From Phycicoccus sp. M110.8 (GTDB lineage Bacteria > Actinomycetota > Actinomycetes > Actinomycetales > Dermatophilaceae): DNA of 64,000 nt. Positions 2-62,526 of this stretch are shown here, piece by piece. Made by a program: the position numbers and the translations under genes. Within the stretch, counting starts at the first letter, position 1. Each line of letters starts with the position of its first letter. The notes under the pieces were generated by a model. The model did no database searches. It worked only from the letters and a program-made list of their open reading frames with translations, and was not told where the DNA came from. The stretch is taken from the NCBI RefSeq assembly GCF_032464895.1, contig NZ_JAWDIC010000001.1, forward strand, positions 1,860,001-1,924,000, given 5' to 3'.

Positions 2-1243
2 CGCGAGGACCCCGACCGGGTCCGCGCGAGCCAGCGCGCCCGTGGCGAGGACGAAGGGGTGGTCGACGCGGTGCTGTCCGCGGACGACCGCCGGCGGGCC
101 AGCCTCACCGAGTTCGAGCGGCTGCGGGCCGAGCAGAAGTCGATGGGCAAGCAGGTCGCGCAGGCGCAGGGCGAGGAGAAGCACGCCCTCCTGACGAAGA
201 CCAAGCACATCGCGGCCCAGGTGAAGTCGCTGCAGGCCGACGCCGATGCCGCCGAGGAGGAGCTCGGCACCCTCATCCGGCAGATCGGCAACGTCGTCGA
301 GCCGGGCGTCCCGGTCGGCGGCGAGGACGACTACGAGGTGCTCGAGACGGTCGGCGAGGTGCCGACCTTCGACTTCGAGCCCCGCGACCACCTCGAGCTC
401 GGCGAGATGCTGGGCGCAGTCGACATGGAGCGCGGCGCCAAGGTCTCGGGCTCGCGGTTCTACTTCCTCACGGGGGTCGGCGCGCGGCTCGAGCTGGCGC
501 TGCTGAACATGGGCATCGCGCAGGCCGTCGAGCACGGGTTCACCCCCGTCATCACCCCGACGCTGGTCAAGACCGACGTCATGGCGGGTGCGGGGTTCAT
601 CGACAAGCACTCCGAGGAGGTCTACCGGCTCGCCGACGACGACCTCTGGCTCACCGGCACCTCGGAGGTCGCGCTCGCCGGCTTCCACGCCGACGAGATC
701 CTCGACCTGTCGGCGGGGCCGAAGCGGTATGCCGGGTGGTCGGCCTGCTACCGCCGCGAGGCCGGGTCGTACGGCAAGGACACCCGCGGCATCATCCGCG
801 TGCACCAGTTCCACAAGGTCGAGATGTTCACCTACTGCCGGGTCGAGGACGCCGCCGCGGAGCACCAGCGGCTGCTCGGCTGGGAGAAGGAGATGCTCGC
901 CAAGATCGAGGTCCCCTACCGCGTCATCGACACGGCGGCGGGCGACCTCGGTGGTCCGGCGGCGCGCAAGTTCGACTGCGAGGCGTGGGTGCCGACGCAG
1001 GGCCGCTACCGCGAGCTGACGTCGACCTCGAACTGCACGACCTACCAGGCGCGGCGGCTCAACACGCGTGAGCGCGACCCGAACGGCCAGGGCACCCGGG
1101 CCGTCGCCACCCTCAACGGCACGCTCGCCACGACCCGGTGGATGGTCGCGATCCTGGAGAACCACCAGCAGGCCGACGGCTCGGTCGTCGTGCCGAAGGC
1201 GCTCCAGCCGTACCTCGGCCTCGAGGTCCTCCGCCCCGCCTGA
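2..1243 (+). CDS. serS: Seryl-tRNA synthetase (5' end outside window)
   Basis: This class II synthetase charges tRNA-Ser with serine in the cytoplasm. The open frame is already running at base 2, so the true start lies before the window; the in-frame GTG at 59 is internal. The visible 413 residues begin with the tRNA-binding coiled-coil arm (about residues 25-110, rich in E/K/Q/A). The catalytic core follows, with motif 2 (CYRREAG near residue 249, then FHKVEMF) and motif 3 ([10 protein letters not shown] near residue 373). Only the first handful of residues should be missing. A cluster of palindromes starts 16 bases after the stop. Identification is secure. Confidence 0.97.
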
Positions 1244-1260
1244 CGCTCCGCGGCATCCCC

Positions 1261-1329
1261 GCAAAACGGCAGTTGCTCGGCATCACTCGGGTTGTTGTCC
1301 CGCGGTTTGCCGAGCAACCGCTGTTTTGC
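1261..1329. repeat. REP-like palindrome, first hairpin
   Basis: Bases 1261-1282 pair with 1308-1329 as a 22-bp stem with two mismatches, one of them a G-T wobble, and a 25-nt loop. The arm begins GCAAAACGGCAGTTGC, which recurs exactly at 1346. The stem lies between two forward genes, so it could also end serS transcription, although no T-run follows. I infer a member of a dispersed intergenic repeat family. Confidence 0.75.
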
Positions 1330-1345
1330 GCTCCCGGGTGGATCC

Positions 1346-1416
1346 GCAAAACGGCAGTTGCTGGCGTGAAACGGAACTGCCGAACTGCCGTTTCGTGCCG
1401 GCAACTGCCGTTTCGC
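1346..1416. repeat. REP-like palindrome, second nested hairpin
   Basis: Bases 1346-1365 pair with 1397-1416 (18 of 20 complementary). Inside them a 7-bp hairpin forms from GAAACGG (1368-1374) and CCGTTTC (1388-1394), and AACTGCCG is tandemly repeated at 1375-1390. The outer arm starts with the same 16 bases as the first hairpin at 1261. Two linked copies in inverted arrays resemble bacterial REP/BIME elements. Confidence 0.75.
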
Positions 1417-2688: not shown

Positions 2689-3486
2689 ATGAAGCCCCAC
2701 CTCGTCGCGCTCGACGTCGACGGCACCACCATCGACCACGCGGGCGTCCTGTCGCCGGCCGTCCGCGACGCCGTCCGCGACGTGGTGGCCGCCGGCCACC
2801 ACGTCATCGTCTCGACCGGCCGCTCGATCGTGGCGACCACCCCGATCCTCGAGGAGCTCGGGATCACCACGGGGTATGCCGTGTGCTCCAACGGCGCGGT
2901 GACGATCGAGCTGGATCCCGCCGAGGACAGGGGATTCCGCGTGCTGGAGGCCGTCACGTTCGACCCGGCGCCCGCGCTCAACCTGCTGCGCGTCGAGTGG
3001 CCGGACGCCGTCGTGGCAGTCGAGGAGCTGGGTGTCGGGTTCAAGCTGAGCGCACCGTTCCCCGACGGCGAGCTCCAGGGCGAGCTGCGGGTCGTGCCGT
3101 GGGACGAGCTGGTCGCCGACCCGGTGACCCGCGTGACCTTCCGGGCACCCGAGGGCACCGCCGAGGACTTCCTGGCCCTCACGGAGCGGATCGGCCTGCA
3201 CGGGGTCAACTACGCGGTCGGCTTCTCGGCCTGGCTCGACCTCAACCCCGAGGGCGTCTCCAAGGGCTCGGCGTTGGAGATCCTGCGCCGTCGCCTCGAC
3301 GTCGAGCCGCGGTACACCGTCGCGGTGGGCGACCAGCGCAACGACGTCGAGATGCTGCACTGGGCCGCGCGCGGCGTGGCCATGGGCAACGCCCCCGACG
3401 AGGTGAAGGCGGTCGCCGACGAGGTGACCGGCCACGTGGACGACGACGGCCTGCTGCCGGTGCTGCTCTCCCTGCTCGAGGGATGA
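2689..3486 (+). CDS. HAD-superfamily (Cof-type) phosphatase
   Basis: A 265-residue cytoplasmic haloacid-dehalogenase phosphatase of the Cof/YbiV type, probably acting on sugar or nucleotide phosphates; the substrate cannot be read from sequence. Motif I is DVDGT at residues 9-13, with Asp9 as nucleophile and Asp11 as acid/base. Motif II is the STGRS threonine region near residue 44. The KGSAL lysine motif lies near residue 190. Motif IV is GDQRND at 214-219, which binds magnesium. A long central cap fits class IIB. It starts 9 bases after lldD and has a leaderless-type promoter across the lldD stop. Confidence 0.88.
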   Translation: MKPHLVALDVDGTTIDHAGVLSPAVRDAVRDVVAAGHHVIVSTGRSIVATTPILEELGITTGYAVCSNGAVTIELDPAEDRGFRVLEAVTFDPAPALNLLRVEWPDAVVAVEELGVGFKLSAPFPDGELQGELRVVPWDELVADPVTRVTFRAPEGTAEDFLALTERIGLHGVNYAVGFSAWLDLNPEGVSKGSALEILRRRLDVEPRYTVAVGDQRNDVEMLHWAARGVAMGNAPDEVKAVADEVTGHVDDDGLLPVLLSLLEG

Positions 3487-3856: not shown

Positions 3857-4833
3857 GCCCCGTCGCGGGTCCGCTCCCGGACGCAGTCACGGCCGAGTCC
3901 TTCCGGGCCTTCGCGCGCGGGCAGGCGGCCGGCTGGTCGCCCACCTACGAGCGGCTCGCGTATGCCGTGGCGCAGGACGAGCGCGTCCTCGGGCTGCTCG
4001 CCGGGCTCCCGGAGGCCACGCGGCAGCCCAACCTGCTCTTCGGGGTGGGGCGCCTGCTGGGTGCCCCGGTCGACGACCCGGACGCCTTTCCGCGGTGGGT
4101 CGTCACCCGGTGGGGTGACGTCGAGCGCGAGGTGCGCGGGCGGAGCACGCAGACGAACGAGGCGGCACGGTGCGCCACCCTCCTGCCGGCCCTGTCGTCG
4201 CTGCCCGGGCCGCTGGCCCTGCTCGAGTTGGGCGCGAGCGCCGGTCTGTGCCTCTACCCCGACCGCTACCGGTACGACTACGGCGACGGCGTGGTCGGCG
4301 ACGGCGACGGTCCGGTGCTGGGGTGCCGCTGGCTCGGCGACAGCACGCCACCGACCACCCGACCCGAGGTCGCCTGGCGGGCCGGGCTGGACCTGCACCC
4401 GCTCGACGTCGCGGACCCCGACCACCTGAGGTGGCTCGACTGCCTCGTGTGGCCCGAGCACGACGAGCGCCGCGAGAGGCTGCACGCCGCGGCACGCGTG
4501 GCGGCGCAGGACCCGCCGCTGCTCGTGACCGGCGACCTCGTCACCGACCTGCCGGCGCTCGCCCGGCGCGCCCCCGAGGGCGCGACCCTCGTGGTCCTGC
4601 ACACGGCGGTGCTCGCCTACGTCGACGCGCCCACCCGGGTCGCCTTCGTGGAGACGGTGCGCGGCCTGGGCGCGCACTGGCTCGCCAACGAGGCCCCGTC
4701 GCTGCTGTCGGGACTGCTGCCGGTCCCGCCGTCTTCGACCGCGGACGGGCCCCGTCCGTTCCTGACGGCGCTGGACGGCATACCGCTCGGCTGGTCCGGG
4801 CCCCACGGCCAGTCGTACCGACCGCTCACCTGA
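3853..4833 (+). CDS. DUF2332 family protein
   Basis: A 326-residue protein of the actinobacterial DUF2332 family, function unknown. Visible marks are an N-terminal helix with FARGQAAGWSPTYERL, a conserved LLEXGASAGLCLYPDRYRY segment that resembles a methyltransferase glycine-rich loop, and a C-terminal VVLHTAVLAYVD strand. The GASAGL loop makes an S-adenosylmethionine fold conceivable, but this is inference. GTG 3853 is chosen because it overlaps the preceding stop in a four-base GTGA. Longer frames upstream are only shadows of the thioesterase gene. Confidence 0.72.
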   Translation: MSPVAGPLPDAVTAESFRAFARGQAAGWSPTYERLAYAVAQDERVLGLLAGLPEATRQPNLLFGVGRLLGAPVDDPDAFPRWVVTRWGDVEREVRGRSTQTNEAARCATLLPALSSLPGPLALLELGASAGLCLYPDRYRYDYGDGVVGDGDGPVLGCRWLGDSTPPTTRPEVAWRAGLDLHPLDVADPDHLRWLDCLVWPEHDERRERLHAAARVAAQDPPLLVTGDLVTDLPALARRAPEGATLVVLHTAVLAYVDAPTRVAFVETVRGLGAHWLANEAPSLLSGLLPVPPSSTADGPRPFLTALDGIPLGWSGPHGQSYRPLT

Positions 4834-7152: not shown

Positions 7153-7809
7153 GTGGACGCGACACCCGCACAACCCGTCCCGCCGTCCGTGCGCGCCCAG
7201 GTCCTCGCCACCGAGCACTGGTCGCTGCTCGCCACCCGGAGCATGACGTGGTCGGAGGTCATGAGCCGGATCACGATCCACCTCACCGTCACCTCCGCCT
7301 CGCTCGTCGTCCTCGCCCTCGTCGCGCAGGCGACCGGCTTCGGGACGGGCTTCCGGGTCATGGCGATCGGGCTGGCGGCATACTCGCTCGTCCTCGGCAC
7401 CCTCACCGCCGCCCGCGTCCACAACGCCAGCCACGACGACGCGGCCATGGTGCTCGGCATGAACCGGCTCCGCGCCGCCTACGTGGACCTCGACCCCGGC
7501 ATCGCGCCCTACCTCGTCGCCGGCACGACGAACGACCGGGACGGGCTGATGCAGACGTACCTCATGGGTGCCCGCCGCTCGACGTTCAGCCATGTCGTGG
7601 CGAGCACCGCCATGTTCATGAACGCCGTGAACACCATGGTCGCCGGCACGCTCGGGGCCCTGGTCGCGTATGCCGTGGGCGCTGGTCCCGTCGGCACGAG
7701 CATCGCCGGCGTGCTCACCGCGCTGTCCCACCTGGGGGTCATGGTGGAGTGGGGTCGTCGGACGTTCGGCGTGGACCCACCCGGGACGGGAGCGGGTCAG
7801 GTCCCCTAG
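7153..7809 (+). CDS. Membrane protein of unknown function
   Basis: A 218-residue protein I do not recognise. A cytoplasmic N-terminus (about 45 residues) is followed by two close hydrophobic helices (about residues 48-68 and 73-92), a central soluble part with YVDLDPGIAPYLVAGTTNDRDGLMQTYLMG, and two C-terminal hydrophobic helices (about 155-205). The MTWSEVMSRITIHLTV opening suggests a conserved actinobacterial small membrane family. The GTG start has a GGAGGGG site ending two bases before it, so spacing is short. Its stop overlaps the stop of the convergent gene in the four bases CTAG. Confidence 0.68.
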   Translation: MDATPAQPVPPSVRAQVLATEHWSLLATRSMTWSEVMSRITIHLTVTSASLVVLALVAQATGFGTGFRVMAIGLAAYSLVLGTLTAARVHNASHDDAAMVLGMNRLRAAYVDLDPGIAPYLVAGTTNDRDGLMQTYLMGARRSTFSHVVASTAMFMNAVNTMVAGTLGALVAYAVGAGPVGTSIAGVLTALSHLGVMVEWGRRTFGVDPPGTGAGQVP

Positions 7810-9627: not shown

Positions 9628-9723
9628 GGCCCACAGTGTCCCAGAGCGCCGGAGCGGGTATGCCGCAAGGCTCCGTCCGTGGGACGGCCGTCCGCTGGGG
9701 GTGCCGCGCCCCGGCACCCGGCA

Positions 9724-9729
9724 TACGGT
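9724..9729 (+). promoter_or_regulatory. -10 hexamer TACGGT of aldo/keto reductase
   Basis: CGGCATACGGT ends 7 bases before the ATG at 9737. TACGGT fits the TANNNT leaderless pattern and again overlaps a CGGCATAC octamer (9719-9726). Confidence 0.5.
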
Positions 9730-10849: not shown

Positions 10850-12265
10850 TCAGTAGAAGCCGTACCGGTCCAGGGCCGGGACGAGCTCGTCCTCCTCGAA
10901 GGACAGGTGCTCGAGCAGGGTCTGCGAGAGCCGGTCGACGACGCGCTGCAGCTCCGGAGTGCCCGACGCGCCGGTGACCAGGCCGACCAGCGCGTCGTCG
11001 AGCTGCTCGAGCACGTCGTGGATCACGACGTGCTCCTGCTCCAGCCGGTCGAGCACCGGTGCGAGGTCGGGGTCGCTGCGCCGCAGGTGCGGGAAGACCG
11101 AGCGGTCCTCCAGGCCGTGGTGGCCGGTGACGAAGCGGCAGTACTGCTGGCAGTACGCCCCGAGCGTCCAGTTGTTCTGCCGCATCGTGAGCTCGTTGAT
11201 CGCGTTGCGGGCACGGTGCGCCTGCTCCTCGCCCGCAACCACCTGCTCGACGATGTCGCGCAGCCGGGCCAGCTCGGCCCGCAGGCCGTCGTGGACCTCG
11301 ACGAGGTGCGCGCCCGCCCCTGCGTGCGCCTGGGCGGCGCCGTCGTCGTCGGTCGGTCGCACGGCGACGGTCTGGCGGACGGCCGGTTCGGCAGCGGGTG
11401 CGTCGGCACCGCCGGCGGCCCTGCGGGAGCGCTCGTCCTCGACGAGCTCCCGGGTCGCCGGGGCCACCTCGGCGGCGAACCGCTGCACGTCCCGCACCGA
11501 CGCGACCGGCAGGATGAAGGTGGACATCCCGTGCTGCAGGGCCAGCTCCGCCAGCTGCTCGGGCCCGACCCCCGGGTCGACGTTATACAGCCGCCGCACC
11601 GCCGCCGGGTCGCGGCCGGCGCCGCGCGCCGCCTCGTCGATCGCCGCGTTCATGGCCGCGAGCTCGGAGGGCCCGGCATACCCCATCGAGGGGAGCCAGC
11701 CGTCGGCGAGCCGGCCGGTGAGGCGGAGCATCCGCGGCTTGTACGCCCCGATCCAGATGCCGATCGGGTGGGCGGGCGCAGGCCCCGCGTGCAGGCCCTT
11801 GACCCGGTAGTGCTCCCCGTCGACGGAGACCGATCCGCGCCCGGACCAGACGCCACGGATGACCTCGATCGCCTCCTCGAGCGCGGTCGTGGCCTCACCG
11901 GGGGTGCGGCGCGGGCCGCCGGCGGCCGCGATCGCGTCCCAGAAGGCGCCGGTGCCCAGCCCGAGCTCCACGCGCCCGCCCGAGAGCAGGTCGAGCGTCG
12001 CGGCGCTGCGGGCCAGGACCACCGGCGGGCGCAGGGGCAGGTTGGCCACGTTGGGGGCCACGCGCACCGTCGTCGTCCGGGCCGCGACCACCGACAGCAG
12101 GGTCCAGGTGTCGAGGTGCCGGGCGTTGTACGGGTGGTCCTGCACGGTCACGAGGTCCAGGCCGCTGACGTCGGCGGCCTCGCTCATCTGCAGGACGAGG
12201 TCGGCCGCCGAGGCGTCAGGGGTGGGGAAGATGCCGAACTCCAGCTGGTGCCCGTAGTCCGTCAC
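10850..12265 (-). CDS. LLM-class oxidoreductase fused to hemerythrin-like domain
   Basis: A 471-residue two-domain protein. Residues 1 to about 290 form a luciferase-like monooxygenase/F420-dependent oxidoreductase barrel (LEFGIFPTPDA start, VTVQDHPYN, ELGLGTGAFWDAI, PIGIWIGAYKPRMLRL). After an Ala-rich linker, residues about 330-465 are a hemerythrin HHE-like four-helix domain: HDGLRAEL, FVTGHHGLEDRSVFPHL, LEQEHVVIHDVL, HLSFEEDELVPAL. These His and Glu residues would bind a di-iron centre. Substrate is unknown; oxygen, NO or redox sensing coupled to a flavin/F420 reaction is inference. It follows a TPR gene by 45 bases, probably in one operon. Confidence 0.85.
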   Translation of the reverse strand: MTDYGHQLEFGIFPTPDASAADLVLQMSEAADVSGLDLVTVQDHPYNARHLDTWTLLSVVAARTTTVRVAPNVANLPLRPPVVLARSAATLDLLSGGRVELGLGTGAFWDAIAAAGGPRRTPGEATTALEEAIEVIRGVWSGRGSVSVDGEHYRVKGLHAGPAPAHPIGIWIGAYKPRMLRLTGRLADGWLPSMGYAGPSELAAMNAAIDEAARGAGRDPAAVRRLYNVDPGVGPEQLAELALQHGMSTFILPVASVRDVQRFAAEVAPATRELVEDERSRRAAGGADAPAAEPAVRQTVAVRPTDDDGAAQAHAGAGAHLVEVHDGLRAELARLRDIVEQVVAGEEQAHRARNAINELTMRQNNWTLGAYCQQYCRFVTGHHGLEDRSVFPHLRRSDPDLAPVLDRLEQEHVVIHDVLEQLDDALVGLVTGASGTPELQRVVDRLSQTLLEHLSFEEDELVPALDRYGFY

Positions 12266-41144: not shown

Positions 41145-41953
41145 TGAGGGTTGCGGTGGTGCAGGTCGGCTACGGCGACGCCGAGCCGGTCGCGGAGCGG
41201 GTCGAGCGGGTCGCCGCCGTGGTGCGGGCGCAGGCCGGTCACGACCTCGTCGTGCTGCCCGAGCTGTGGGCACCGGGCGGCTTCGCCTACCGCGAGTGGC
41301 AGGACCGGGCCGAGCCCGTCGACGGCCCGACCGGGCAGGCGATGTCCGCCGCGGCCCGGGACGCCGGTGTCGTCCTGCACGCCGGGTCCATCATCGAGCG
41401 CCCGGCCGATGGCGAGGTGGGCAGCGACGGGCACGGCCTGTGGAACACCTCGCTCGTCTACGGCCGGGACGGGAGCCTGCTCGCGGCATACCGCAAGGTG
41501 CACCGGTTCGGCTTCGGCGCGGGCGAGCCGAAGCTGCTCGACGCGGGCGGGGACGTCGTCGTGGTGGACCTGCCGCTGGGCGACGGCGGCAGCGTCCGGA
41601 CCGGCCTGTCCACCTGCTACGACCTGCGCTTCCCCGAGCTGTACCGGCGGCAGGTCGACGCCGGGGCCACCCTCTTCGTCGTCCCGGCCGCCTGGCCGGC
41701 CGCGCGCGTGCGGCACTGGACGCTGCTCGCGCACGCCCGCGCGGTCGAGGACCAGTGCGTCGTCGTCGCGTGCAACACCGCGGGCACGCACGCCGGCACC
41801 GAGATGGGCGGTCACTCCCAGGTCGTCTCGGCCACGGGCGAGGCGCTCGCCATGGCCGGCACGGACGAGCAGGTGCTCAGCGTCGAGGTCGACCTCGACG
41901 CGGTGGCGGCCTGGCGCGAGCAGTTCCCGGTCCTGCGGGACCGGCGGCTGTGA
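41144..41953 (+). CDS. Carbon-nitrogen hydrolase (nitrilase superfamily)
   Basis: A 269-residue amidase-type hydrolase with the Glu-Lys-Cys triad: Glu40 (VVLPELWAPGG), Lys118 (YRKVHRFGFG) and Cys158 (STCYDLRFPELYR). It resembles the omega-amidase/NIT2 and deaminated-glutathione amidase group, so it may repair or salvage small amides. ATG 41144 overlaps the CopD-CtaG stop (TGATG) and follows GAGGAGGG, so the pair is translationally coupled. The functional link to copper is not obvious. Confidence 0.88.
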   Translation: MRVAVVQVGYGDAEPVAERVERVAAVVRAQAGHDLVVLPELWAPGGFAYREWQDRAEPVDGPTGQAMSAAARDAGVVLHAGSIIERPADGEVGSDGHGLWNTSLVYGRDGSLLAAYRKVHRFGFGAGEPKLLDAGGDVVVVDLPLGDGGSVRTGLSTCYDLRFPELYRRQVDAGATLFVVPAAWPAARVRHWTLLAHARAVEDQCVVVACNTAGTHAGTEMGGHSQVVSATGEALAMAGTDEQVLSVEVDLDAVAAWREQFPVLRDRRL

Positions 41954-46950: not shown

Positions 46951-48828
46951 TCAGAAGGCGCTCTCGGGCACGTCCATCAGCGCGTTGTCGGTGGCCTCGG
47001 CGATCGCGCGCTCGGCGGCGAGCTTCGGCAGGACGGTGCGCGCGAAGAACGACGCCGCGGCGACCTTGCCCTCGTAGAAGTCGCGGTCCCTGGCCGAGAC
47101 CTCTCCCGACTGCAATGCGCGGTTCGCGACCTCGGCCTGGCGCAGCAGCAGCCAGCCGATGACGAGGTCACCGGCGCCGAGGAGCAGTCGCGTGGTGTTC
47201 TGGCCGACCTTGTAGAGGTTGGTGAGGTCGCCACCCTCCTGGCGCGGGTCGGACTTCATCAGCTCGCCGACCATGAACCCGAGGATGCCCTGGACGTTCT
47301 CGAGCGCCTGGCCGAGCAGCTCGCGCTCGCGGTCGAGCGCACCGCCGTCGGTGCCGAGGTCCTTGGCGAACTCCTGCACCTGCATCGCGATGTGGGTGAG
47401 CGCCTGGGCCTTGTCCTTGATGATCTTGCGGAAGAAGAAGTCCAGGCCCTGGATCGCCGTCGTGCCCTCGTAGAGGGTGTCGATCTTGGCGTCGCGGATG
47501 TACTGCTCGATCGGGTAGTCCTGCAGGAAGCCCGACCCGCCGAGCGTCTGCAGGGACTCGGTGCCGAGGAGCACCCAGGCGCGCTCGGACCCGACGCCCT
47601 TGACGATCGGGAGCAGCAGGTCGTTGACCCGGTTGGCCATCTCGGCCGGGCTGTCCTTCTCGAGCGACTCGGCCCCGGTCTCGAGCTGGGCCTGGTCGAC
47701 GAGGTCCTGCTGCGTCGCGGTGTAGAGCACCAGTGCGCGCAGCCCCTCGGCATACGCCTTCTGGGTCATCAGCGAGCGGCGCACGTCCGGGTGGTGGGTG
47801 ATGGTGACGCGGGGGGCGGACTTGTCGCCCTGCTGGGTCAGGTCGGCGCCCTGCACGCGCTGCTTGGCGTAGTCGAGCGCGTTGAGGTATGCCGTGGAGA
47901 GCGTCGAGATCGCCTTGGTGCCCACGAGCATGCGGGCGTGCTCGATCACCCGGAACATCTGGGCGATGCCGTCGTGGGTGTCGCCGAGCAGGGTGCCGAC
48001 GGCCGGCTCCCTGTCGCCGAAGGTCACCTCGCACGTGGTGGAGACCTTCAGGCCCATCTTGTGCTCGACGTTGGTGACGTAGGCGCCGTTGCGCTCGCCC
48101 AGCTCGCCGGTCTCGAGGTCGACGTGGAACTTCGGCACGATGAACAGCGACAGGCCCTTGGTGCCCGGGCCGGCGCCCTCGGGGCGGGCCAGCACGAAGT
48201 GCACGACGTTGTCGGTCATGTCGGACTCCGCCGAGGTGATGAACCGCTTGACGCCGGTGACGTTCCAGGTGCCGTCGTCGTTCTGCACGGCCTTGGTGCG
48301 GCCGGCGCCCACGTCGGAGCCCGCGTCGGGCTCGGTGAGCACCATCGTGCAGTGCCAGCCCTTCTCGATGATCCAGCGGGCCAGCTTCTTCTGCTCGTCG
48401 TTGCCGAGCAGGTAGAGAAGCTTGCCGAAGGAGTACGACGCGGCGAACATCGCGATCGCCGGGTTGGCGCCCAGCACCATCTCGTTCATGGCCCACTTGA
48501 GGCTGGGCGGCACGACGGTGCCGTCGAGCTCGCCGGGCACGTCGACGTTCCAGAAGCCGGAGTCGACGTAGGCCTGGTAGCTCTTGGTGAACGACTCGGG
48601 CATGGTCACCGAGTAGGTCGAGGGGTCGTAGACCGGCGGGTTCCGGTCGGCGTCGGCGAAGGACGCGGCGAGCTCGTTCTCGGAGAGCCGGGCGACCTCC
48701 TTGAGCATCTCGCGGGCGGTGTCTGCGTCGACCTCGGCGTACGGGCCGCTGCCCAGCACCTCGCCGCGGCCGAAGACCTCGAAGAGGTTGAACTCGAGGT
48801 CTCGCAGGTTGCTCTTGTAGTGGCCCAT
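46951..48828 (-). CDS. Acyl-CoA dehydrogenase (FadE5/AidB-like long form)
   Basis: A 625-residue flavoenzyme that makes the 2,3-double bond of acyl-CoA in fatty-acid beta-oxidation. It starts [20 protein letters not shown], as in mycobacterial FadE5-type proteins, and is longer than the usual 380-residue enzymes because of N- and C-terminal helical additions. FAD/substrate motifs [15 protein letters not shown] and [13 protein letters not shown], and the catalytic-loop region [21 protein letters not shown], are present. ATG 48828 is preferred. Two dyads of the form TACY-N4-RGTA upstream suggest TetR-type control. Confidence 0.9.
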
Positions 48829-49685: not shown

Positions 49686-49776
49686 GGCGCGTCCGCCCCG
49701 GGCGGCCGGCGGCGGGCTGCCTCGCGCGCGTGGCGCCGTCGTCGCGGTTGCCGACGCAGACGGCATACTTCCGGGG

Positions 49777-51770: not shown

Positions 51771-53018
51771 TCAGGAGTCCGTGAGGGAGAAGTTGGTGAA
51801 CTGCCAGGTCGCGGGGGACCCGCCGGTGTCGACCACCTCGACGCCGTAGCAGACCTGGTCCACCGTGGCGGCCGACCCATTGGTGACACGCCCCTGCGAC
51901 ACGAGGTAGTCGAGCATGGCCTTGATGTCGATGGTGCCGGAGGTCAGGCGGGCGCCGCCGGAGGGCACGAAGGCGATGTACCCGTTGCCGCTGGTGGCGT
52001 AGACGTCCCACGTGTGCCCGCCTACGGAGATGCCGGTGGCGAACCGGTTCCCGGCGGGGTACTGGCCGTGGTTGTCGGTCCAGATCATGACCTCGTCGTT
52101 GGGGACGCCGTTGAGCCACAGGTCGTAGGCGACGTCGTAGATCCCGACGTTCGGTGAGGTCGCGGCGAAGGAGGAGACCAGCTTGGGGAAGCTGGCGATG
52201 GTGCGACCGGAGTAGTCCTTGTGCACGTTGGGGTAGGTCTTGACCTCACCGGTGCCCGAGCTGTTGCTGGCGGTCGCGACGTGGTTCCAGGAGTGGTACG
52301 AGCAGACCGAGGTGGTGCCCTTGGTGCCGGGGTACTTCGAGGCGTTCCACAGGTTGTTGTGGACGTAGAACCCGCCGTCGGTCACGCCCCCGTTGGGATC
52401 ACTCGTCGTGAAGTACGGGTTCGTGCACACCGACCCCACGGGGGCCTGCGCGCTCGTGGTGCTGCTCGAGGTCGTCGAGGAGGTGGGCGTCGTCGTCGAG
52501 CTGGTCGTGGTCGAGCTGGACGACGTGCTGCTCGTCGTCGTCTGCGTCGACGGGGGGGACGTGGTCGGCGACGTCGTGGTGGACGTCGTGGTCGTGGTGG
52601 TCGACGGCTGCGGGGTCGTCGTGAACGTCCGGTCGGCGCCGAAGGCCGTGCCCGCCGAGCTCCTGGCGACGAGCCGGTAGTGGTACGTGGTGCCGCCCGT
52701 CAGGCCCTGCAGGGTCGCCGAGGCGGTCGTGGTGCGGCCCTTGCCCGAGATGCTCGCGGCCGCGGACGACCCGTATGCCGTGGACGTGCCGAACTGGAAC
52801 GTCGCCGTCGCCGCGGAACCGCGAGGGGCGGAGACCGTTCCCGCCAGGACGGCGCCGCTGGACGTCACCGACGTGGCGGCCCCGGTGGTCGCCACGAGCT
52901 TGACGGCGCCGGTGAGCTGTTGGTCGGACGTCCGGACGGTGTCGTGCACCGCGAGGGTGGCGACGAGCGCCACGGCGGTGACCGCGACGGCAGGCAGGAG
53001 CGGGGGTCGGAACTTCAC
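51771..53018 (-). CDS. Secreted FN3-GH12 endoglucanase/xyloglucanase
   Basis: A 415-residue exported glycoside hydrolase. The signal peptide (LLPAVAVTAVALVATLAVHDT) leads to a fibronectin-III-like domain at about 40-135 (LAGTVSAPRGSAATATFQFGTS, TLQGLTGGTTYHYRLVARSSAG). A linker of some 55 Ser/Thr/Pro residues precedes a GH12 domain (about 195-415). The nucleophile is Glu309 (PNDEVMIWTDNHG) and the acid/base Glu394 (CYGVEVVDTGG). GH12 enzymes cut beta-1,4-glucans, retaining configuration. The FN3 replaces the usual cellulose-binding module. GTG 53018 follows GGAGG. A long frame upstream is a shadow. Confidence 0.83.
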   Translation of the reverse strand: MKFRPPLLPAVAVTAVALVATLAVHDTVRTSDQQLTGAVKLVATTGAATSVTSSGAVLAGTVSAPRGSAATATFQFGTSTAYGSSAAASISGKGRTTTASATLQGLTGGTTYHYRLVARSSAGTAFGADRTFTTTPQPSTTTTTTSTTTSPTTSPPSTQTTTSSTSSSSTTTSSTTTPTSSTTSSSTTSAQAPVGSVCTNPYFTTSDPNGGVTDGGFYVHNNLWNASKYPGTKGTTSVCSYHSWNHVATASNSSGTGEVKTYPNVHKDYSGRTIASFPKLVSSFAATSPNVGIYDVAYDLWLNGVPNDEVMIWTDNHGQYPAGNRFATGISVGGHTWDVYATSGNGYIAFVPSGGARLTSGTIDIKAMLDYLVSQGRVTNGSAATVDQVCYGVEVVDTGGSPATWQFTNFSLTDS

Positions 53019-53756: not shown

Positions 53757-53825
53757 GCCGGGGCCGGCGGACCGGCATACGGGATGCGCGCGGGGAAGGC
53801 CCTCGGAAACGGCGCCGACCCGGCA

Positions 53826-53837: not shown

Positions 53838-55154
53838 GTGGGCCCTGCAGGGATCGTGCCGCGGCGCGCGGTGCTGGCGGGCGGCGTCGGTGCGGCGGCC
53901 GCCGCGTCCTTCGGCGTGCTCGAGGCGCGCGGGCGCACCGGCCGGCGCGACCTTCCGCTCTACTCCGAGACCGTCGCCCTGGGCGAGGCCGGCGCCCGCA
54001 CCCCGGTCCCGGTCGGCCGGGTCGACCTCCTCGTGGAGGGCACACGGGTGCTGCGCACCGACCGCTACCCGGCCCGGCTCGTCCACGCCGAGGCCGAGTT
54101 CCTCGGGTCGGCCGCCGCGTGGACGCGGGCCGGCGGGCGGTGGTCCGGGATCACCCGCACGGCACTGCTCGACCTCCGCGTGCTCACCCACGGGCTCCCG
54201 GCGGCCGTGGCCGGCTGGACCTCGCCGTGGCGGTACGTCTGGCCGCGCGACTGCGCGCACGTCGCCGTGGCGCTGGCCCGCTGTGGCTTCCTCGACGCCG
54301 GGCTGGCCCAGCTGCGGTTCCTCCAGGAGGTGCAGGGAACGGACGGCTGGTTCGAGGCGCGGTACGACGCGACCACCCGGCGCTCGCCGGACCGTCGCCC
54401 GCGCCAGTTCGACGGCGCCGCCTGGGCGCTGTGGGCGGTGTCCTCGCTGCTCGACGAGCCCGGCGCCGACGCCGAGCGCGTGCTGCGCGGGCTCGAGCCC
54501 CTGGTGCGGCGCAGTGCGGCCGTGCTCGTGGACAACCTCGGGCCGGACGGGTTGCCGCCGGCGACGCCGGACTACTGGGAGCTGCCGACCGACGTGCTGA
54601 CCCTGGGGATCGCGGCACCGGTGTGGGCCGGGCTCTCGCACGCGTTCCGGCTGCTCGACGTCCTGGGCGACCACGCCGGCGCGGACCGGGTGGGCATGGC
54701 GGCCGACGCCGTCTCGCGCGTGGTGTCCGAGCGCTTCGGGGTGACCGGCTACGGCCGCGAGCTGGGTGGCCGTGCCCTCGACGCCTCGGTGGCCTTCCTC
54801 TTCCCGCCGTATGCCGTGTACCCGCCGTCCGCGCCGGTGCGGGCTGCGCTCGACCGCGCCGAGGCCGCGCTCCAGCGGCCGGCCGGCGGCCTCGCCCCTG
54901 GGGAGGACTGGCGCTCCGACGGCGTGAGCTGGACGCCGCAGACGGCTCTCTTCGCGCTCGTCCACGCGCAGGACGGGCAGGTCGCGCGGGCCACGCGCCT
55001 CCTGGAGTGGCTGGACCGCCACCGCACGGCGGCCGGCTCCCTGCCCGAGAAGGTGCTCCACGACGGCCGCCCCGCGTCCGTCGCACCCCTGGCGTGGACG
55101 GCCGCGCTCACCCTGCTGACCGTGTCCGCGGTCCAGGGAGCCGACGAGGCCTGA
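53838..55154 (+). CDS. GH15-like (glucoamylase-fold) protein, exported
   Basis: A 438-residue protein. The N-terminus PRRAVLAGGVGAAAAASF has a twin-arginine and hydrophobic core, so Tat export is likely. The rest is an (alpha/alpha)6-barrel-like enzyme: SPWRYVWPRDCAHVAVALARCGF is the substrate subsite region, QFDGAAWALWAVSSLLDEPG follows, and SWTPQTALFALVHAQDG and SLPEKVLHDGRPASVAPLAWTAA close the barrel. This order matches glucoamylase/glucodextranase relatives, and the Glu in SLPEK may be catalytic. The natural substrate is unknown. Confidence 0.75.
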   Translation: MGPAGIVPRRAVLAGGVGAAAAASFGVLEARGRTGRRDLPLYSETVALGEAGARTPVPVGRVDLLVEGTRVLRTDRYPARLVHAEAEFLGSAAAWTRAGGRWSGITRTALLDLRVLTHGLPAAVAGWTSPWRYVWPRDCAHVAVALARCGFLDAGLAQLRFLQEVQGTDGWFEARYDATTRRSPDRRPRQFDGAAWALWAVSSLLDEPGADAERVLRGLEPLVRRSAAVLVDNLGPDGLPPATPDYWELPTDVLTLGIAAPVWAGLSHAFRLLDVLGDHAGADRVGMAADAVSRVVSERFGVTGYGRELGGRALDASVAFLFPPYAVYPPSAPVRAALDRAEAALQRPAGGLAPGEDWRSDGVSWTPQTALFALVHAQDGQVARATRLLEWLDRHRTAAGSLPEKVLHDGRPASVAPLAWTAALTLLTVSAVQGADEA

Positions 55155-55682: not shown

Positions 55683-58243
55683 GGGGCGGCCGCGGCCACG
55701 GCATCCGGGTCGTCGTCGGGTGACGGCTCGGCGTCGGGCAGGGGGTGCTCGCGCTCGAGCCGGGCGCCCTCGACGTCGACGTCGGGCAGGACGCGGTCGA
55801 GCCACCGCGGCAGCCACCAGGCCGCCCCTCCGAGCAGGTGCATGAGCGCCGGGACGAGCATCAGCCGGACGACGAAGGCGTCGAGCAGGACCCCGAAGGC
55901 GAGGCCGAAGCCGATCGGCTTGATCGTCGCGTCGTGGGAGAAGATGAAGCCCGCGAAGACCGAGGTCATGATGATCGCCGCCGCCGTGACGACGGCGCGG
56001 CCCGCGAGCACGCCCCGCTGCACCGCGACCCTCGCCGGGGCGCCGTGCGTCCACGCCTCGCGCATGCCGGACACGAGGAAGAGCTGGTAGTCCATGGCCA
56101 GGCCGAACAGGATGCCCGTCTCGATGATGGGCAGGAAGCTCAGGATCGGACCGGGGTCGTGCACGCCGAAGACGCTCGAGAGCCACCCGAGCTGGAAGAT
56201 CGCGGTGAGGCCGCCGAACGACGCCAGCAGCGAGAGCACGAACCCGAGGGTCGCCGTCAGCGGGACGAGCAGGGAGCGGAACACCAGCAAGAGGATCAGC
56301 AGCGACAGCCCCACCACGAGCACCAGGTAGAGCGGGAGGGCGTCGGACAGCTTCTGCGAGACGTCGATGTTGGCGCTGGCGTTGCCGGCCACCCCGAGCG
56401 TGACCCGGCCGCCGTCGGTGGCCTGCGGGTGGAGGTCGCGCAGGGACTGGACGAGCGTCGCGGTCGACTCGCTGTTGGGGCCGCCCTTCGGGATGACCTG
56501 GAAGGCGAGCGCGTCACGAGCCCGGGAGGCCCCGATGGGCACGACCGCGACCACGTCACCCGTGTCGCGGATGGCTCGCCCGACGGCGGCCTGCTCGGCG
56601 GTGAGGGCGTCCTGGGCGACCGGGCGGGGCAGGTCGGCCACGACGAGCAGCGGGCCGTTGTACCCGTCGCCGAACCGGTCCGCCTGCAGCGTGTAGGCCT
56701 TGTACGCCGCGGTCTCGCGGGGCTGGCTCGACCCGTCGGGCAGGCCGAGGCGCATCTGGAGCGCGGGGAGGGCGACGACGGCCAGGACGGCCACGCCGGC
56801 GAGGAGCGTGACGACCGCCCGGCCCGTTCGCATCGGGCGGACCGGCGCGGGTGCCGCGTGGTGACCGGCCGTGGACGACTCGCCCTCGCCGACCCGGGCC
56901 TTCGCGCCCCCGGCCGCCGCGAGGAGCCGGGCCCGCTCGCGGCGGCGCAGGATCCGCATACCCACCAGCGAGAGCACCGCGGGCGTGAAGGTGGTGGCGA
57001 CGACGATGGCCACGAGCACCGCGGCCGCGCCCACCGTGCCCATGAGGCCGAGGAACGGTATGCCGGTGATGTTGAGGGCGAGCAGCGCGACCATGACCGT
57101 GGCACCGGCGAAGACCACGGCGTTGCCGGAGGTCCCGTTGGCCAGGCCGATCGACTCGTGCAGCCCCATCCCGTGGCGCAGCTGGGTCCGGTGCCGGTTG
57201 AGGATGAAGAGCGAGTAGTCGATGCCGACCGCGAGGCCGAGCATGACGCCGAGCACCGGTGTCACCGACTGGAAGTCCACCAGCCCCGAGAACGACATCG
57301 CGGCCAGGGTGGCCACCCCGACGCCGAGCAGGGCGCTCGCCAGGGGGAGGGCCGCCCCGACGAGCGTCCCGAGCATGAGGACCAGGACGAGGGCGGCCAC
57401 GAGGACGCCGGCGACCTCACCCGGGCCGAGGACCGACGGCACCGTCTGGGAGATGTCCTGCGACGGGTAGACGGCGACCCCGTCGATCCCCGCTCGCGCC
57501 ACGAGCGTCTCGATGGCCGTCTTGGTCCCGGTCGGCACCTCGTTGGTGGGCAGGTCGAAGGACACCGGCGCGATGGCCGCGCTGCCGTCCTCGGAGACGA
57601 AGCGGAACCCGGAGGCGAGCTCGGCGACCTGGGCGCCGTCGGCGAGTGCGGCGCCCTTGGCCTGGAGGGTGGCTCGCTGCGCCTCCAGCTCCTTGCGAGC
57701 GGTGTCGAGCTGGGTCTGGGCGGCGTCGAGCCGGGCGGTGGCGCTCGCCGGGGCACCCGCCGCGGTGGCCGCGGCACGCTGCTGGTCGAGCTGCCGCTGC
57801 TGCTCGGCCAGCTTCTGCTCACCCTGGGCGAGGGCCGCCCGCCCCTGGTCCAGCTGGGTGCGGCCCTCGGCGAGCTGCGCGGCGCCGCGGTCGAGCTGGG
57901 CCTGCGTGGCGAAGGGGTCGGTCGTGCCGCGCACGCCGGAGACCGTGTCGACCTGCTGGAGCAGCCGGGTGACGCCGGCCTTCTGCGCCGCCGTGAACGG
58001 GGTGCCGTCCGTCGTGGTGAGGGCCAGGCTCCCCGCGCCGCCGCTGGCGTCCGGGAAGTCCTTGGCCAGCTGGGCGGCGACGGCGCTGGTCGGCGTGCCC
58101 GGGATGGTGATCGCCGAGCTGACCGGTCCCGAGAAGCCGAGGAACGTCCCGAGCCCGACGAGCAGGGCCAGCAGCCACAGGCCCAGGACGGTCCAGTGGC
58201 GGCGCGCGGCGAACCGGCCGACGCGGTAGAGGAGCTCAGCCAT
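55670..58243 (-). CDS. MMPL-family RND transporter
   Basis: An 857-residue inner-membrane exporter of lipids or drugs, driven by the proton gradient. Two RND repeats are visible: the first helix block with a following soluble region (residues about 35-250), then helices with GVMLGLAVGIDYSLFILNRHRTQL, and a second block with ETGILFGLAMDYQLFLVSGMREA. The first soluble domain holds a long heptad-like coiled coil (about 115-205, Gln/Ala/Leu-rich). The gene is 24 bases after tetR. Substrates are unknown, and the C-terminus is short. Confidence 0.88.
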   Translation of the reverse strand: MAELLYRVGRFAARRHWTVLGLWLLALLVGLGTFLGFSGPVSSAITIPGTPTSAVAAQLAKDFPDASGGAGSLALTTTDGTPFTAAQKAGVTRLLQQVDTVSGVRGTTDPFATQAQLDRGAAQLAEGRTQLDQGRAALAQGEQKLAEQQRQLDQQRAAATAAGAPASATARLDAAQTQLDTARKELEAQRATLQAKGAALADGAQVAELASGFRFVSEDGSAAIAPVSFDLPTNEVPTGTKTAIETLVARAGIDGVAVYPSQDISQTVPSVLGPGEVAGVLVAALVLVLMLGTLVGAALPLASALLGVGVATLAAMSFSGLVDFQSVTPVLGVMLGLAVGIDYSLFILNRHRTQLRHGMGLHESIGLANGTSGNAVVFAGATVMVALLALNITGIPFLGLMGTVGAAAVLVAIVVATTFTPAVLSLVGMRILRRRERARLLAAAGGAKARVGEGESSTAGHHAAPAPVRPMRTGRAVVTLLAGVAVLAVVALPALQMRLGLPDGSSQPRETAAYKAYTLQADRFGDGYNGPLLVVADLPRPVAQDALTAEQAAVGRAIRDTGDVVAVVPIGASRARDALAFQVIPKGGPNSESTATLVQSLRDLHPQATDGGRVTLGVAGNASANIDVSQKLSDALPLYLVLVVGLSLLILLLVFRSLLVPLTATLGFVLSLLASFGGLTAIFQLGWLSSVFGVHDPGPILSFLPIIETGILFGLAMDYQLFLVSGMREAWTHGAPARVAVQRGVLAGRAVVTAAAIIMTSVFAGFIFSHDATIKPIGFGLAFGVLLDAFVVRLMLVPALMHLLGGAAWWLPRWLDRVLPDVDVEGARLEREHPLPDAEPSPDDDPDAVAAAAPGRG

Positions 58244-58954: not shown

Positions 58955-59206
58955 ATTGTTGGCGACGGCCTCGCTGGCACCGCCTCCGTTTCCCGCAGCC
59001 CGGGAGGCGCCAGGTATGCCGTGCGCGGCCCGTGCACCCGAGGACGAAGGTCCCTAGGCCGGTCCCGGCGCCGGTGGTCCAGTGGACGTGGATGTCACGA
59101 AGGAACACGCCTTCGCCGTAGGGGGGCGGGACGCGTCAGGAGTGGCGGAATCCCAAGCCACGGGTGGGGATCCGGGGCGGGTACCGATGCGAAAGAAGGT
59201 TGTGCC

Positions 59207-60427: not shown

Positions 60428-60430
60428 CCC

Positions 60431-61267
60431 GTGACCGCGGACCCGCGCACCGCTGACACCCCCGCCCCGGGGGAGGCAGGACCTCCTGCCGCCCCGGGGG
60501 CGGGGGAGCCCCTGCTCCGGCTGCGGGGCATCAGCAAGAGCTTCGGGCCGGTGCGCGCCCTGACCGACGTCGACCTCGACCTGCACGCCGGCGAGGTCAC
60601 GGCGCTCGCCGGCGACAACGGTGCCGGCAAGTCGGTCCTCATCAAGTGCATCGCGGGGATCCACGCGCCGACGTCGGGCGAGATCTGGTGGGAGGGGCAG
60701 CAGGTCTCCATCGACACGCCCCGCGACGCAGCCCACCTGGGGATCGAGACGGTCTACCAGGACCTCGCGCTGTGCGACAACCTCGACATCGTCGAGAACA
60801 TGTTCCTCGGGAGGGAGCGCACCCGGCGGGCGGCGCTCGACGAGGAGTCGATGGAGCACTCGGCCCTCGACACCCTCAAGAGCCTGGCGGTCACCAGCGT
60901 GCGCTCGATCCGCCAGCCGGTCGCCTCCCTCTCGGGCGGCCAGCGGCAGTCGGTCGCCATCGCCAAGGCGGTGCTGTGGAACTCCAAGCTCGTCATCATG
61001 GACGAGCCGACCGCGGCCCTCGGTGTGGCGCAGACCGCCATGGTGCTCGACCTCGTGCGCCGGCTCGCCGACCGCGGGGTGGCGGTCCTGATCGTGTCCC
61101 ACAACATGAACGACGTCTTCCAGGTCGCCGACCGGATCGCGGTGCTCCACCTCGGCCGGATGGCGGCCGTGCGACCGGTCGCCGAGCTCGACCGGCAGAT
61201 CGTGGTGGACCTGATGACCACGGGCGAGTCCACCCGGGTGGCCGGCCCACGACCGGCAGGAGGCTGA
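60431..61267 (+). CDS. Sugar ABC transporter ATP-binding protein
   Basis: A 278-residue ATPase with one nucleotide-binding domain: Walker A GDNGAGKS at residues 61-68, signature SLSGGQRQSVAIAKAV, Walker B LVIMDEPTAALG and the switch His in VSHNMNDV. E. coli RbsA/XylG proteins have two such domains; this single-domain form works as a homodimer, as in FrcA-type systems. The GTG at 60431 lies 3 bases after the binding-protein stop, and the permease follows by 2 bases. Confidence 0.9.
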   Translation: MTADPRTADTPAPGEAGPPAAPGAGEPLLRLRGISKSFGPVRALTDVDLDLHAGEVTALAGDNGAGKSVLIKCIAGIHAPTSGEIWWEGQQVSIDTPRDAAHLGIETVYQDLALCDNLDIVENMFLGRERTRRAALDEESMEHSALDTLKSLAVTSVRSIRQPVASLSGGQRQSVAIAKAVLWNSKLVIMDEPTAALGVAQTAMVLDLVRRLADRGVAVLIVSHNMNDVFQVADRIAVLHLGRMAAVRPVAELDRQIVVDLMTTGESTRVAGPRPAGG

Positions 61268-61269
61268 CC

Positions 61270-62526
61270 ATGGCCCAGGTCGACGACGCACCCCGCGCCC
61301 CCGAGGAGGTCACGCAGGCCCCACCGCCGGTGACGACGGCGGCATACCTGCGCGCCTCGGTGGCGCGCATCAAGGACGGCGACACCGGCGTCCTGCCCGT
61401 CATCGCGGGCCTGCTGCTCGTGTCGGTCCTGTTCGAGTCGCTCAACGGCAACTTCCTCACGGCCGGCAGCCTCGTGAACCTGCTCGTGCAGGCAGCCGTC
61501 TTCAGCATCCTGGCCATGGGCCAGGTGTTCGCCCTGCTGCTGGGCGAGATCGACCTGTCCATCGGCTTCGTCGCCGGCCTGAGCGCCGTCATCATGGCGG
61601 AGCGGGTGCAGCCGACCGTCGGCTGGCCGTGGTGGGTGGCGATCCTCGCGGCCCTCGCCGTGTGCGCCGCGATCGGGGCCGTCCAGGGCACGCTGATCAC
61701 CCGCCTCGGGCTGCCGTCGTTCGTCGTGACGCTGGGCGGCCTGCTGTTCTGGCAGGGCGTGATGCTGGTGATCCTCGGCAGCGGCGGGTCGATCCTCATC
61801 CAGGACCCGACGATCAACGACATCTCCAGCGGCAACCTGTCCCGGCTCGCCGGGTGGGTCGTGATGCTCGTCATCGTCGCCGTCTTCGCGTTCACCACGT
61901 GGCGCGGTGACGCCCACCGGCGCGACGCCGGGCTCACCGCGCCGCCGGCCACCCTGACCCTCGTCAAGATCCTCCTGGCGCTCGCCGGCGGTGTCGCCCT
62001 GGTCCTGCTGTGCAACGCCGACCGCGGCATCCTGCTCCCCGTCTACGGCGTCCCCTGGGTGGTGCTGCTCGTCTTCGCCGTCCTCGCCTCGTGGACCTTC
62101 CTGCTGGGCCGCACCCGGTTCGGGCGCTACGTCTACGCGATCGGCGGGAACGCCGAGGCCGCCCGCCGTGCGGGCATCGGGCTGGCCCGCATCCGGACCG
62201 TGGCCTTCGTCCTCGCGTCCCTGACCGCCGGCATCGCCGGCGTCGTGTACGCCTCGCGCCTGCGGTCCATCTCCACCGCCATCGACGGCGGCACCCTCGT
62301 CCTGTATGCCGTGGCGGCGGCCGTCATCGGCGGCACGAGCCTGTTCGGCGGCCGGGGCAAGGCGATGCACGGCGTCCTCGGCGGGATCGTCATCGCCGCC
62401 ATCGACAACGGCATGGGGCTGCTCGGGTTCAGCGCGGCCAGCAAGTACATGGTGACGGCGGCCGTCCTCATCATCGCCGTCACCATCGACGCCGTCGCCC
62501 GGCGCAACCGGCCGTCGGTGCGCTGA
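61270..62526 (+). CDS. Sugar ABC transporter permease
   Basis: A 418-residue membrane permease of the BPD-transport-2 (RbsC/XylH) type with about ten helices. NLLVQAAVFSILAMGQVFALLLGEIDLSIG is the diagnostic region, and GLPSFVVTLGGLLFWQGVML plus RFGRYVYAIGGNAEAARRAGIGLARI hold the EAA-like coupling loop. It belongs to the preceding binding protein and ATPase. No sugar kinase or isomerase is in the window, so the catabolic genes are elsewhere. Confidence 0.9.
   Translation: MAQVDDAPRAPEEVTQAPPPVTTAAYLRASVARIKDGDTGVLPVIAGLLLVSVLFESLNGNFLTAGSLVNLLVQAAVFSILAMGQVFALLLGEIDLSIGFVAGLSAVIMAERVQPTVGWPWWVAILAALAVCAAIGAVQGTLITRLGLPSFVVTLGGLLFWQGVMLVILGSGGSILIQDPTINDISSGNLSRLAGWVVMLVIVAVFAFTTWRGDAHRRDAGLTAPPATLTLVKILLALAGGVALVLLCNADRGILLPVYGVPWVVLLVFAVLASWTFLLGRTRFGRYVYAIGGNAEAARRAGIGLARIRTVAFVLASLTAGIAGVVYASRLRSISTAIDGGTLVLYAVAAAVIGGTSLFGGRGKAMHGVLGGIVIAAIDNGMGLLGFSAASKYMVTAAVLIIAVTIDAVARRNRPSVR

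Follow-up and report, generated by a model that had tools for sequence, protein, structure and literature searches.

An over-represented octamer in Knoellia spaced separately on each DNA strand: a possible uptake-type word with one-base dialects

Results

The octamer in the window and in its genome

The window analyzed here is a 64-kb stretch, bases 1,860,001-1,924,000 of contig 1 of genome G000 (4,117,279 bases, 4.1 Mb), and it contains 38 copies of a single octamer, GTATGCCG, 22 on the plus strand and 16 on the minus strand (Table 1). A third-order Markov model built from the window predicts 2.14. The heptamer GTATGCC occurs 39 times (23 and 16). These counts reproduce exactly those of a first-pass annotation of the window, which had found 39 heptamers and 38 octamers (22 and 16) and had anticipated about two copies by chance; it had also named a genome-wide count close to a third-order Markov expectation as a possible refutation, and the count is about 20 times such an expectation. 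The span that it gave for the copies, 719-62311, is right at its far end, where the last copy lies at 62304-62311, and wrong at its start, as the first copy is at 727-734. The word-free interval that it placed at 21066-24167 is real, with copies at 21059 and 24168 on either side, but at 3.1 kb it is unexceptional because the longest gap in the window is 3.8 kb.

The excess holds across the genome. G000 contains 2476 copies of GTATGCCG (1234 forward and 1242 reverse), compared to 135 (74 and 61 on the two strands) of a control word with its letters reversed, and 444 kb of G000 contain 254 copies where 12.9 are expected. The word is sharp, in that its strongest one-base neighbors in the window are GGATGCCG (13 copies, 5.7 expected) and GTACGCCG (8 copies, 5.4 expected). 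The reversed-letter control is an unmatched expectation for GGATGCCG and GTACGCCG, which were therefore compared genome against genome. Flanking preferences are weak (G at position 10, C or T at position 9) and the rest mostly resembles codon periodicity. Genes were called with a simple caller of our own and no annotation was used. The putative leucyl-tRNA synthetase gene (leuS) of G000, recognized by its first residues, is nearest among named species to those of Knoellia koreensis (90%) and Knoellia remsis (89%), and on this likeness we place G000 in Knoellia (Intrasporangiaceae in the NCBI taxonomy; family f1 in the genome set).

Table 1. Copies of GTATGCCG in the 64-kb window
Feature	Position	Strand	Evidence	Remark
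GTATGCCG	727..734	+	exact match	
GTATGCCG	2874..2881	+	exact match	
GTATGCCG	3960..3967	+	exact match	
GTATGCCG	4776..4783	-	exact match	
GTATGCCG	7376..7383	-	exact match	
GTATGCCG	7668..7675	+	exact match	
GTATGCCG	9658..9665	+	exact match	
GTATGCCG	9719..9726	-	exact match	
GTATGCCG	11674..11681	-	exact match	
GTATGCCG	14209..14216	+	exact match	
GTATGCCG	16503..16510	-	exact match	
GTATGCCG	16569..16576	-	exact match	with 16503, a rare close same-orientation pair
GTATGCCG	18213..18220	+	exact match	
GTATGCCG	20315..20322	+	exact match	
GTATGCCG	21059..21066	+	exact match, gene call	contains ATG start of called gene 21061-21774 (Peptidase C26)
GTATGCCG	24168..24175	+	exact match	left arm, intergenic inverted pair
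GTATGCCG	24197..24204	-	exact match	right arm, intergenic inverted pair
GTATGCCG	27397..27404	+	exact match	
GTATGCCG	28304..28311	+	exact match	
GTATGCCG	31524..31531	+	exact match	
GTATGCCG	33759..33766	-	exact match	
GTATGCCG	37592..37599	+	exact match	
GTATGCCG	38312..38319	-	exact match	
GTATGCCG	39506..39513	-	exact match	
GTATGCCG	40391..40398	+	exact match	
GTATGCCG	41484..41491	-	exact match	
GTATGCCG	44577..44584	+	exact match	
GTATGCCG	44924..44931	-	exact match	
GTATGCCG	47748..47755	-	exact match	
GTATGCCG	47887..47894	+	exact match	
GTATGCCG	49761..49768	-	exact match	
GTATGCCG	52773..52780	+	exact match	
GTATGCCG	53773..53780	-	exact match	
GTATGCCG	54809..54816	+	exact match	
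GTATGCCG	57058..57065	+	exact match	
GTATGCCG	59014..59021	+	exact match	
GTATGCCG	61340..61347	-	exact match	
GTATGCCG	62304..62311	+	exact match	

The octamer is maintained at the level of DNA

In the 444 kb of G000, called genes hold 217 of the 254 copies (5.60 per 10 kb) and spacers 37 (6.57 per 10 kb); in other sampled genomes the gene and spacer densities differ in either direction. The suggestion from the first pass that some copies serve as -10 elements gains no support from these densities, a comparison that concerns density rather than promoters as such. Within genes, GTATGCCG has no positional bias and no bias toward gene ends. One copy in the window overlaps a start codon (Table 1), and in Neisseria the uptake word is said, in part of one paper, to start dozens of annotated genes (PMC2346458).

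Two reading frames, Tyr-Ala (128) and Ala-Tyr (67), account for 195 of the 217 genic copies in G000, as might be expected if the word arose from composition, from the use of codon pairs or from a single hotspot of mutation such as C to T at GTACGCCG. The choice of codons argues otherwise, as it depends on context in several frames. Where the octamer could fit, Tyr is encoded by TAT in 128 of 166 cases (77%) compared to 29 of 2189 (1.3%) in other contexts, Ala by GCA in 67 of 104 (64%) compared to 580 of 14930 (3.9%), and Ile by ATA in 14 of 71 (20%) compared to 16 of 3676 (0.4%). The same bias is seen in G004, in K. koreensis and in another genus (G017). In these three, all fitting Met-Pro contexts use CCG (11 of 11, 6 of 6 and 7 of 7, respectively; 2 of 2 in G000), compared to 46 to 60% in the remaining contexts of each species (in K. 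koreensis, 36% of the 22 further contexts with ATG). In contrast, pooled stretches from four genera without GTATGCCG have none of these rare codons in fitting contexts (Tyr 0 of 19, Ala 0 of 15, Ile 0 of 22).

The base preceding the Tyr codon is also drawn to G, which stands there in 166 contexts in G000 and is replaced by another base in 37, compared to 19 and 37 in the word-free genera. A single mutated position is therefore insufficient, and a lone C-to-T hotspot is ruled out. A codon-pair or compositional origin is likewise ruled out, both by codon choice in fitting contexts across several frames and by the spacers of G000, which are similarly dense. We consider it scarcely credible that any of these processes makes the word.

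GTATGCCG is thus a DNA-level signal, kept as a whole octamer whatever the reading frame, and also in spacers. The first-pass annotation had proposed selection on DNA, and as a class of explanation this is borne out. A codon-pair model, which it had named as another possible refutation, does not suffice, since the Tyr-Ala, Ala-Tyr and Gly-Ile frames and the spacers go beyond one codon-pair effect. In an alignment of leuS from twelve species, one site (Ala-Tyr, with GCA) is common to 7 of the 12, and the other eight sites are each found in one to four.

Copies are probably scarce in DNA that appears foreign. A 20-kb locus of G000 (L042, contig 1, 2200001-2220000, GC 0.678) has none; it encodes a 2069-aa RHS-repeat protein, a pretoxin HINT domain and a TniB-like protein and is an acquired-looking RHS/TniB island. 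Genes of G000 with a GC content at third codon positions (GC3) below 0.86 (14 genes, 13.3 kb) also have no copies. The highest-GC3 genes are poorer in GTATGCCG as well, in all three Knoellia species analyzed in detail (G000, G004 and G001). Scarcity of GTATGCCG in foreign DNA is likely, without being cleanly separated from codon bias.

The octamer has no polarity and is spaced separately on each strand

GTATGCCG has no systematic polarity along the chromosome. In G004, which is a single contig, the two orientations are about balanced across 20 stretches (chi-square 6.9 for 20), and the values for G000 (13.4 for 19 stretches) and G001 (8.1 for 23) are similar and if anything too even; single uneven stretches of G000, for example L043 (6 and 1), are due to chance. 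Replication polarity, which the first pass had proposed to test as strand skew relative to origin and terminus, is not seen. The KOPS and SRS words of FtsK/SpoIIIE are short, read with polarity and strongly skewed along the replichores. GTATGCCG has no skew from origin to terminus, and a segregation word of this type is therefore unlikely.

Copies in the same orientation avoid each other. In bins below 1 kb, the ratio of observed to expected same-orientation pairs lies between 0.00 and 0.53 in G000 and G004 and between 0.18 and 0.64 in G001, and it is back at about 1 by 1.5 to 2 kb. Opposite-orientation pairs below 1 kb are at 0.76 to 1.67 of expectation (G000 also has 0.63 at 1-1.5 kb). When orientations were shuffled with positions fixed, same-orientation pairs below 1 kb numbered 25, 35 and 109 in the three species compared to 50.3, 65.9 and 177.7 in the shuffles, and in no species did any of 2000 shuffles reach so low a number. 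The coefficient of variation (CV) of spacing on each strand is 0.64 in all three species (random, 1). The over-even balance of orientations per stretch follows from this spacing. The motif-poor loci L042 and L118 (G000) and L084 (G004) and the K. koreensis locus L170 did not enter the pair-distance and shuffle tests, and L122 (G013) and L125 (G014) did not enter the pair-distance test or the test outside Knoellia.

The avoidance is weaker outside Knoellia. There, nine of 14 sets were pooled, and at 250-500 bp they have 24 same-orientation pairs where 45.9 are expected and 45 opposite pairs where 44.8 are expected. The five sets outside the pool (G171, Humibacillus, G116 with GTACGACG, G086 and Janibacter) have no clear spacing effect, and in G171 same-orientation pairs below 250 bp are in excess (6, 2.3 expected). 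The mixed set of other genomes in the pair-distance test is clearly low in the 125-250 bp bin only.

Opposite pairs at 8-125 bp, summed over the three Knoellia species, number 65 where 48.6 are expected. Among the 14 pairs below 60 bp listed in G000 and G004, 9 are coding and 5 intergenic, an intergenic share that exceeds the spacer fraction, and some of the intergenic pairs have hairpin-like arms. Close inverted pairs are a small class at most. The pair at 24168-24204 in the window lies in a spacer, has 10-bp arms and could form a hairpin.

As a yardstick we used Chi (GCTGGTGG) in E. coli K-12 (nine 50-kb stretches, 450 kb, 137 sites). Chi is strongly polar (chi-square 36.6 for 9) and unspaced per strand: same-orientation pairs below 1 kb number 34 compared to 24.1 expected, opposite pairs 9 compared to 16.2, and the CV is 1.07. 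The spacing in Knoellia fits neither this pattern nor that of the uptake signal sequence (USS) of H. influenzae. Strand-separate spacing suggests that the reader of the octamer works with polarity, one copy serving about 1 to 1.5 kb of its strand. Such spacing would be natural for a step that involves a single strand, be it in transformation or in end resection.

It could also be imagined that GTATGCCG is the site of a chromosome-organizing protein, a methyltransferase or another DNA-binding protein with no role in DNA exchange. The even spacing, with the same per-strand CV in three genomes, would suit such a site, and the HIP1 word of cyanobacteria is an enriched genome-wide word of another kind. 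However, a non-directional protein would not distinguish the orientations in spacing, polarity along the chromosome would be expected of a segregation signal, and one-base dialects by genus (below) are not specifically expected. We regard this explanation as improbable.

Distribution and one-base dialects

More than 500 copies of GTATGCCG are present in 105 of 186 genomes of the family and in 30 of its 53 genera (counted by hand from a table). The ten other Knoellia have 625 to 3986 copies, and the family maximum is 4724. Among 396 genomes of the phylum, only two, G000 and G045, exceed 500, and both belong to the family; outside the family the count peaks at 386 (genome size 7.5 Mb).

Some genomes without GTATGCCG have a different enriched word; for many of the genera that lack it, the analysis found none. 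Small samples (20 to 60 kb) from eight f1 genera and one outgroup without GTATGCCG had no dominant octamer, but each of four genomes without it did have an enriched word when sampled at 100 kb, and the earlier negative may thus reflect sample size for some genera. GGATGCCG is the top octamer in G171 (44 copies, 11.5 expected) and is also enriched in Humibacillus (32, 3.2 expected). GTACGCCG in G122 (83, 18.2 expected) ranks third behind pieces of a longer repeat. In G116 (L261-L265), GTACGGCG, which differs from GTATGCCG by two bases, ranks second (64, 14.8 expected) and GTACGACG is also enriched (61, 19.0 expected); its genus mates G117 and G118 carry GTATGCCG. The nonamer CGAAGGGGG is the top nonamer in G086 (L251-L255; 35, 2.3 expected) and occurs 9 times in 22.9 kb of Janibacter melonis (L142; 0.7 expected). 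It has no clear polarity and is possibly the corresponding word of Janibacter. G122 (L256-L260) also has overlapping decamers around TACCAGGGCAACCG, with up to 18 copies where 0.3 are expected, which are more suggestive of a dispersed repeat than of a dialect.

Whole-genome counts of the one-base variants reach 4480 for GGATGCCG and 4185 for GTACGCCG. GGATGCCG has 3816 and 3838 copies in genus g36, 4480, 3619, 2195 and 2099 in g40, and 3949 in g67, and only 1210 and 1336 in G171 and G011. GTACGCCG has 2111, 4185 and 3903 copies in g57, 2366 and 2618 in two of the three genomes of g31, 2529 in G050 (g3) and 2216 in g34. The two genomes of g40 with fewer GGATGCCG hold about 1200 copies of GTATGCCG, and one of them, G071, combines 1217 copies of GTATGCCG with 2195 of GGATGCCG.

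Codon tests support active upkeep of the variant words. In G122, 10 of 22 contexts that fit GTACGCCG have the rare Val codon GTA, compared to 88 of 2462 elsewhere. In Humibacillus, GAT is used in 14 of 17 contexts that fit GGATGCCG compared to 63 of 762, with a weaker effect in G171 (10 of 32 compared to 111 of 1893). Given its use of GTA, it is unlikely that GTACGCCG in G122 is a mere relic of a lost GTATGCCG. The few copies in the spacers of G122 (3, or 1.83 per 10 kb, compared to 9.57 in genes) speak somewhat against a DNA-level signal for GTACGCCG there. In the Knoellia genomes G009 and G010, GTACGCCG may be a relic of lost GTATGCCG.

In a tree of ComEC (a gene tree, not a species tree, and built without G004), the carriers of GTATGCCG do not form one group, and the well-supported branches force at least three changes. 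The four Knoellia in which the ratio of GTACGCCG to GTATGCCG is highest (G006, G007, G009 and G010) form one supported group, which may represent a new dialect or decay. We infer that GTATGCCG, GTACGCCG and GGATGCCG, distributed by genus, are dialects of one system.

Candidate machinery

Of the candidate uptake genes, ComEC was found in 38 of 39 genomes (every one of the 11 Knoellia among them), TadE in 181 of 186 family genomes, and a PilM-type type IV pilus (PF11104) in 7 of 186, none of them Knoellia. In G004, the ComEC match is split in two open frames near 1517076-1517881 of contig 1, by a sequencing error or because the gene is broken. In another actinobacterium, Micrococcus luteus, comEA and comEC are present and Flp pili are needed for transformation, according to a passage in PMC6370729.

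Genes for the processing of broken ends are also present. RecC (PF04257) occurs in 89 of 186 family genomes; among the 11 Knoellia it is found in G001 only and is missing from G000 and nine of the ten others. The PDDEXK_1 domain is found in 186 of 186, and all 11 Knoellia have long PDDEXK_1 open frames (1054 to 1174 aa) that, judging from length and domain, are probably of the AdnAB kind. None of ComEC, TadE, PDDEXK_1, PilM and RecC tracks the presence of GTATGCCG. Competence genes are also present in genera without GTATGCCG, and their presence is thus non-discriminating. In g32, G046 is the only species without GTATGCCG and the only one of five with RecC, a relation that fails in other genera.

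These genes bear on whether GTATGCCG could be a Chi-type signal, at which AdnAB would stop degrading broken ends on meeting the octamer on the strand that it reads, each strand needing its own copy every few kb. Chi is itself an octamer, a directional reader would explain the strand-separate spacing, and the strand-independent placement of copies, with fewer same-orientation pairs below 1 kb than shuffling gives, is what such a reader needs. Proteins probably of the AdnAB kind are present in all 11 Knoellia, and an excerpt of a 2026 paper calls the management by AdnAB of a stage like Chi recognition unclear (PMC13309787). Against this, E. coli Chi is strongly polar and without same-strand spacing, whereas GTATGCCG has no replichore polarity and is spaced; PDDEXK_1 is equally present in genera without GTATGCCG; and the degree of over-representation and the shifts of dialect go beyond those familiar from Chi (see also part of PMC8022716). 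The argument from polarity is softened by a passage of the same paper allowing that Chi need not be polarized (PMC8022716). RecBCD-Chi in particular is unlikely because RecC is missing from G000 and nearly all other Knoellia. We consider an AdnAB-read Chi-type signal the main rival reading, possible but on the whole unlikely.

Discussion

Based on our results, we favor the interpretation that GTATGCCG is an uptake-type self-DNA word, read with strand polarity and comparable to the DNA uptake sequence (DUS) of Neisseriaceae and the USS of Pasteurellaceae. We give this interpretation about even credence and rank it first, with the AdnAB Chi-type signal a clearly less probable second. In its number of copies, its missing polarity and its sharpness, and in having one-base variants that in some genomes occur side by side, the word matches DUS and USS. 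Its link to transformation, and the identity of the reader, are what we infer from these resemblances.

We postulate that a DNA-binding part of the competence machinery (the Flp/Tad pilus, ComEA/ComEC, or some protein encountered by the entering single strand) could recognize the octamer on the strand being processed. DNA from close relatives that carries the octamer would then enter or recombine more often, so that copies would accumulate and lost ones would be restored. Each copy would serve about 1 to 1.5 kb in its orientation; a nearby copy in the same orientation would not be kept, and copies on the other strand would be placed independently. A one-base shift in the specificity of the reader could lead to the rewriting of the genome to a new dialect (GTATGCCG, GTACGCCG or GGATGCCG).

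Words for self-recognition in uptake or repair have been described mainly from Neisseria and Haemophilus. Like the DUS of Neisseriaceae, GTATGCCG is a short non-palindromic word in many copies, equally distributed between strands, with one-base dialects and with two dialects in some genomes. DUS dialects are given, in part of one paper, as having 1543 to 5918 copies per genome (PMC3630211), a range that includes the copy numbers in Knoellia, and the same source lists 2257 copies of kingDUS and 2292 of simDUS in the single genome of Simonsiella muelleri, which parallels G071. Knoellia, in contrast to Neisseriaceae, belongs to the actinobacteria and lacks PilM-type type IV pili, and its copies avoid neighbors in the same orientation only. 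Like the USS, GTATGCCG has about one copy per kb and no chromosomal polarity, and excerpts of two papers report uptake sequences to be free of orientation bias (PMC1939737, PMC2346458). However, many USS are in close pairs, of which 109 overlapping inverted pairs are described as terminators in part of PMC7811141, and such pairs are few in Knoellia.

Several observations weigh against an uptake word. Uptake in H. influenzae is orientation-independent, according to a passage in PMC1939737, and an orientation-blind receptor predicts no orientation-specific spacing; 23% of the USS10 of H. influenzae are within 100 bp of another, as given in part of PMC7811141. In several of the samples from outside Knoellia, the strand-specific spacing is faint or missing. 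The lack of a PilM-type pilus in Knoellia means that there is no ComP-like setting for recognition, although such a pilus characterizes how Neisseria works rather than what kind of sequence this is. No gene was found that separates the genera with the word from those without it, which have competence genes too. The drop in copies among low-GC3 genes is clear in G000 only; at a GC3 of 0.80-0.86 it is partial in G001 and not clear in G004. Lastly, the open-licence literature searched gave no report of natural transformation in Knoellia. Among the papers listed from it, judged by title and the start of the abstract and with most subscription journals uncovered, none dealt with such a word in this phylum or family, and those listed for the octamer itself looked unrelated.

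Taken together, we think the chances slightly better than even that the octamer is read on single-stranded DNA and in one direction, with the two strands served separately over about 1 to 1.5 kb. It would then be either the first uptake-type self-DNA word in Gram-positive bacteria, one that acts on the incoming strand, or the missing Chi counterpart of AdnAB, and its dialects would set genera apart. If it is a Chi word, it would bear on the regulation of AdnAB, which is stated to be open. Strand-separate spacing can distinguish a directional from an orientation-blind reader by sequence alone, and the test is applicable to every genome with a DUS, USS or Chi. If GTATGCCG is an uptake word, sequence-specific natural transformation would extend beyond the two Gram-negative families in which it has mainly been studied. 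With its dialects and at least 53 genera, the family would then offer a natural experiment in genetic isolation, and the word could provide a handle for genetic tools in these soil bacteria.

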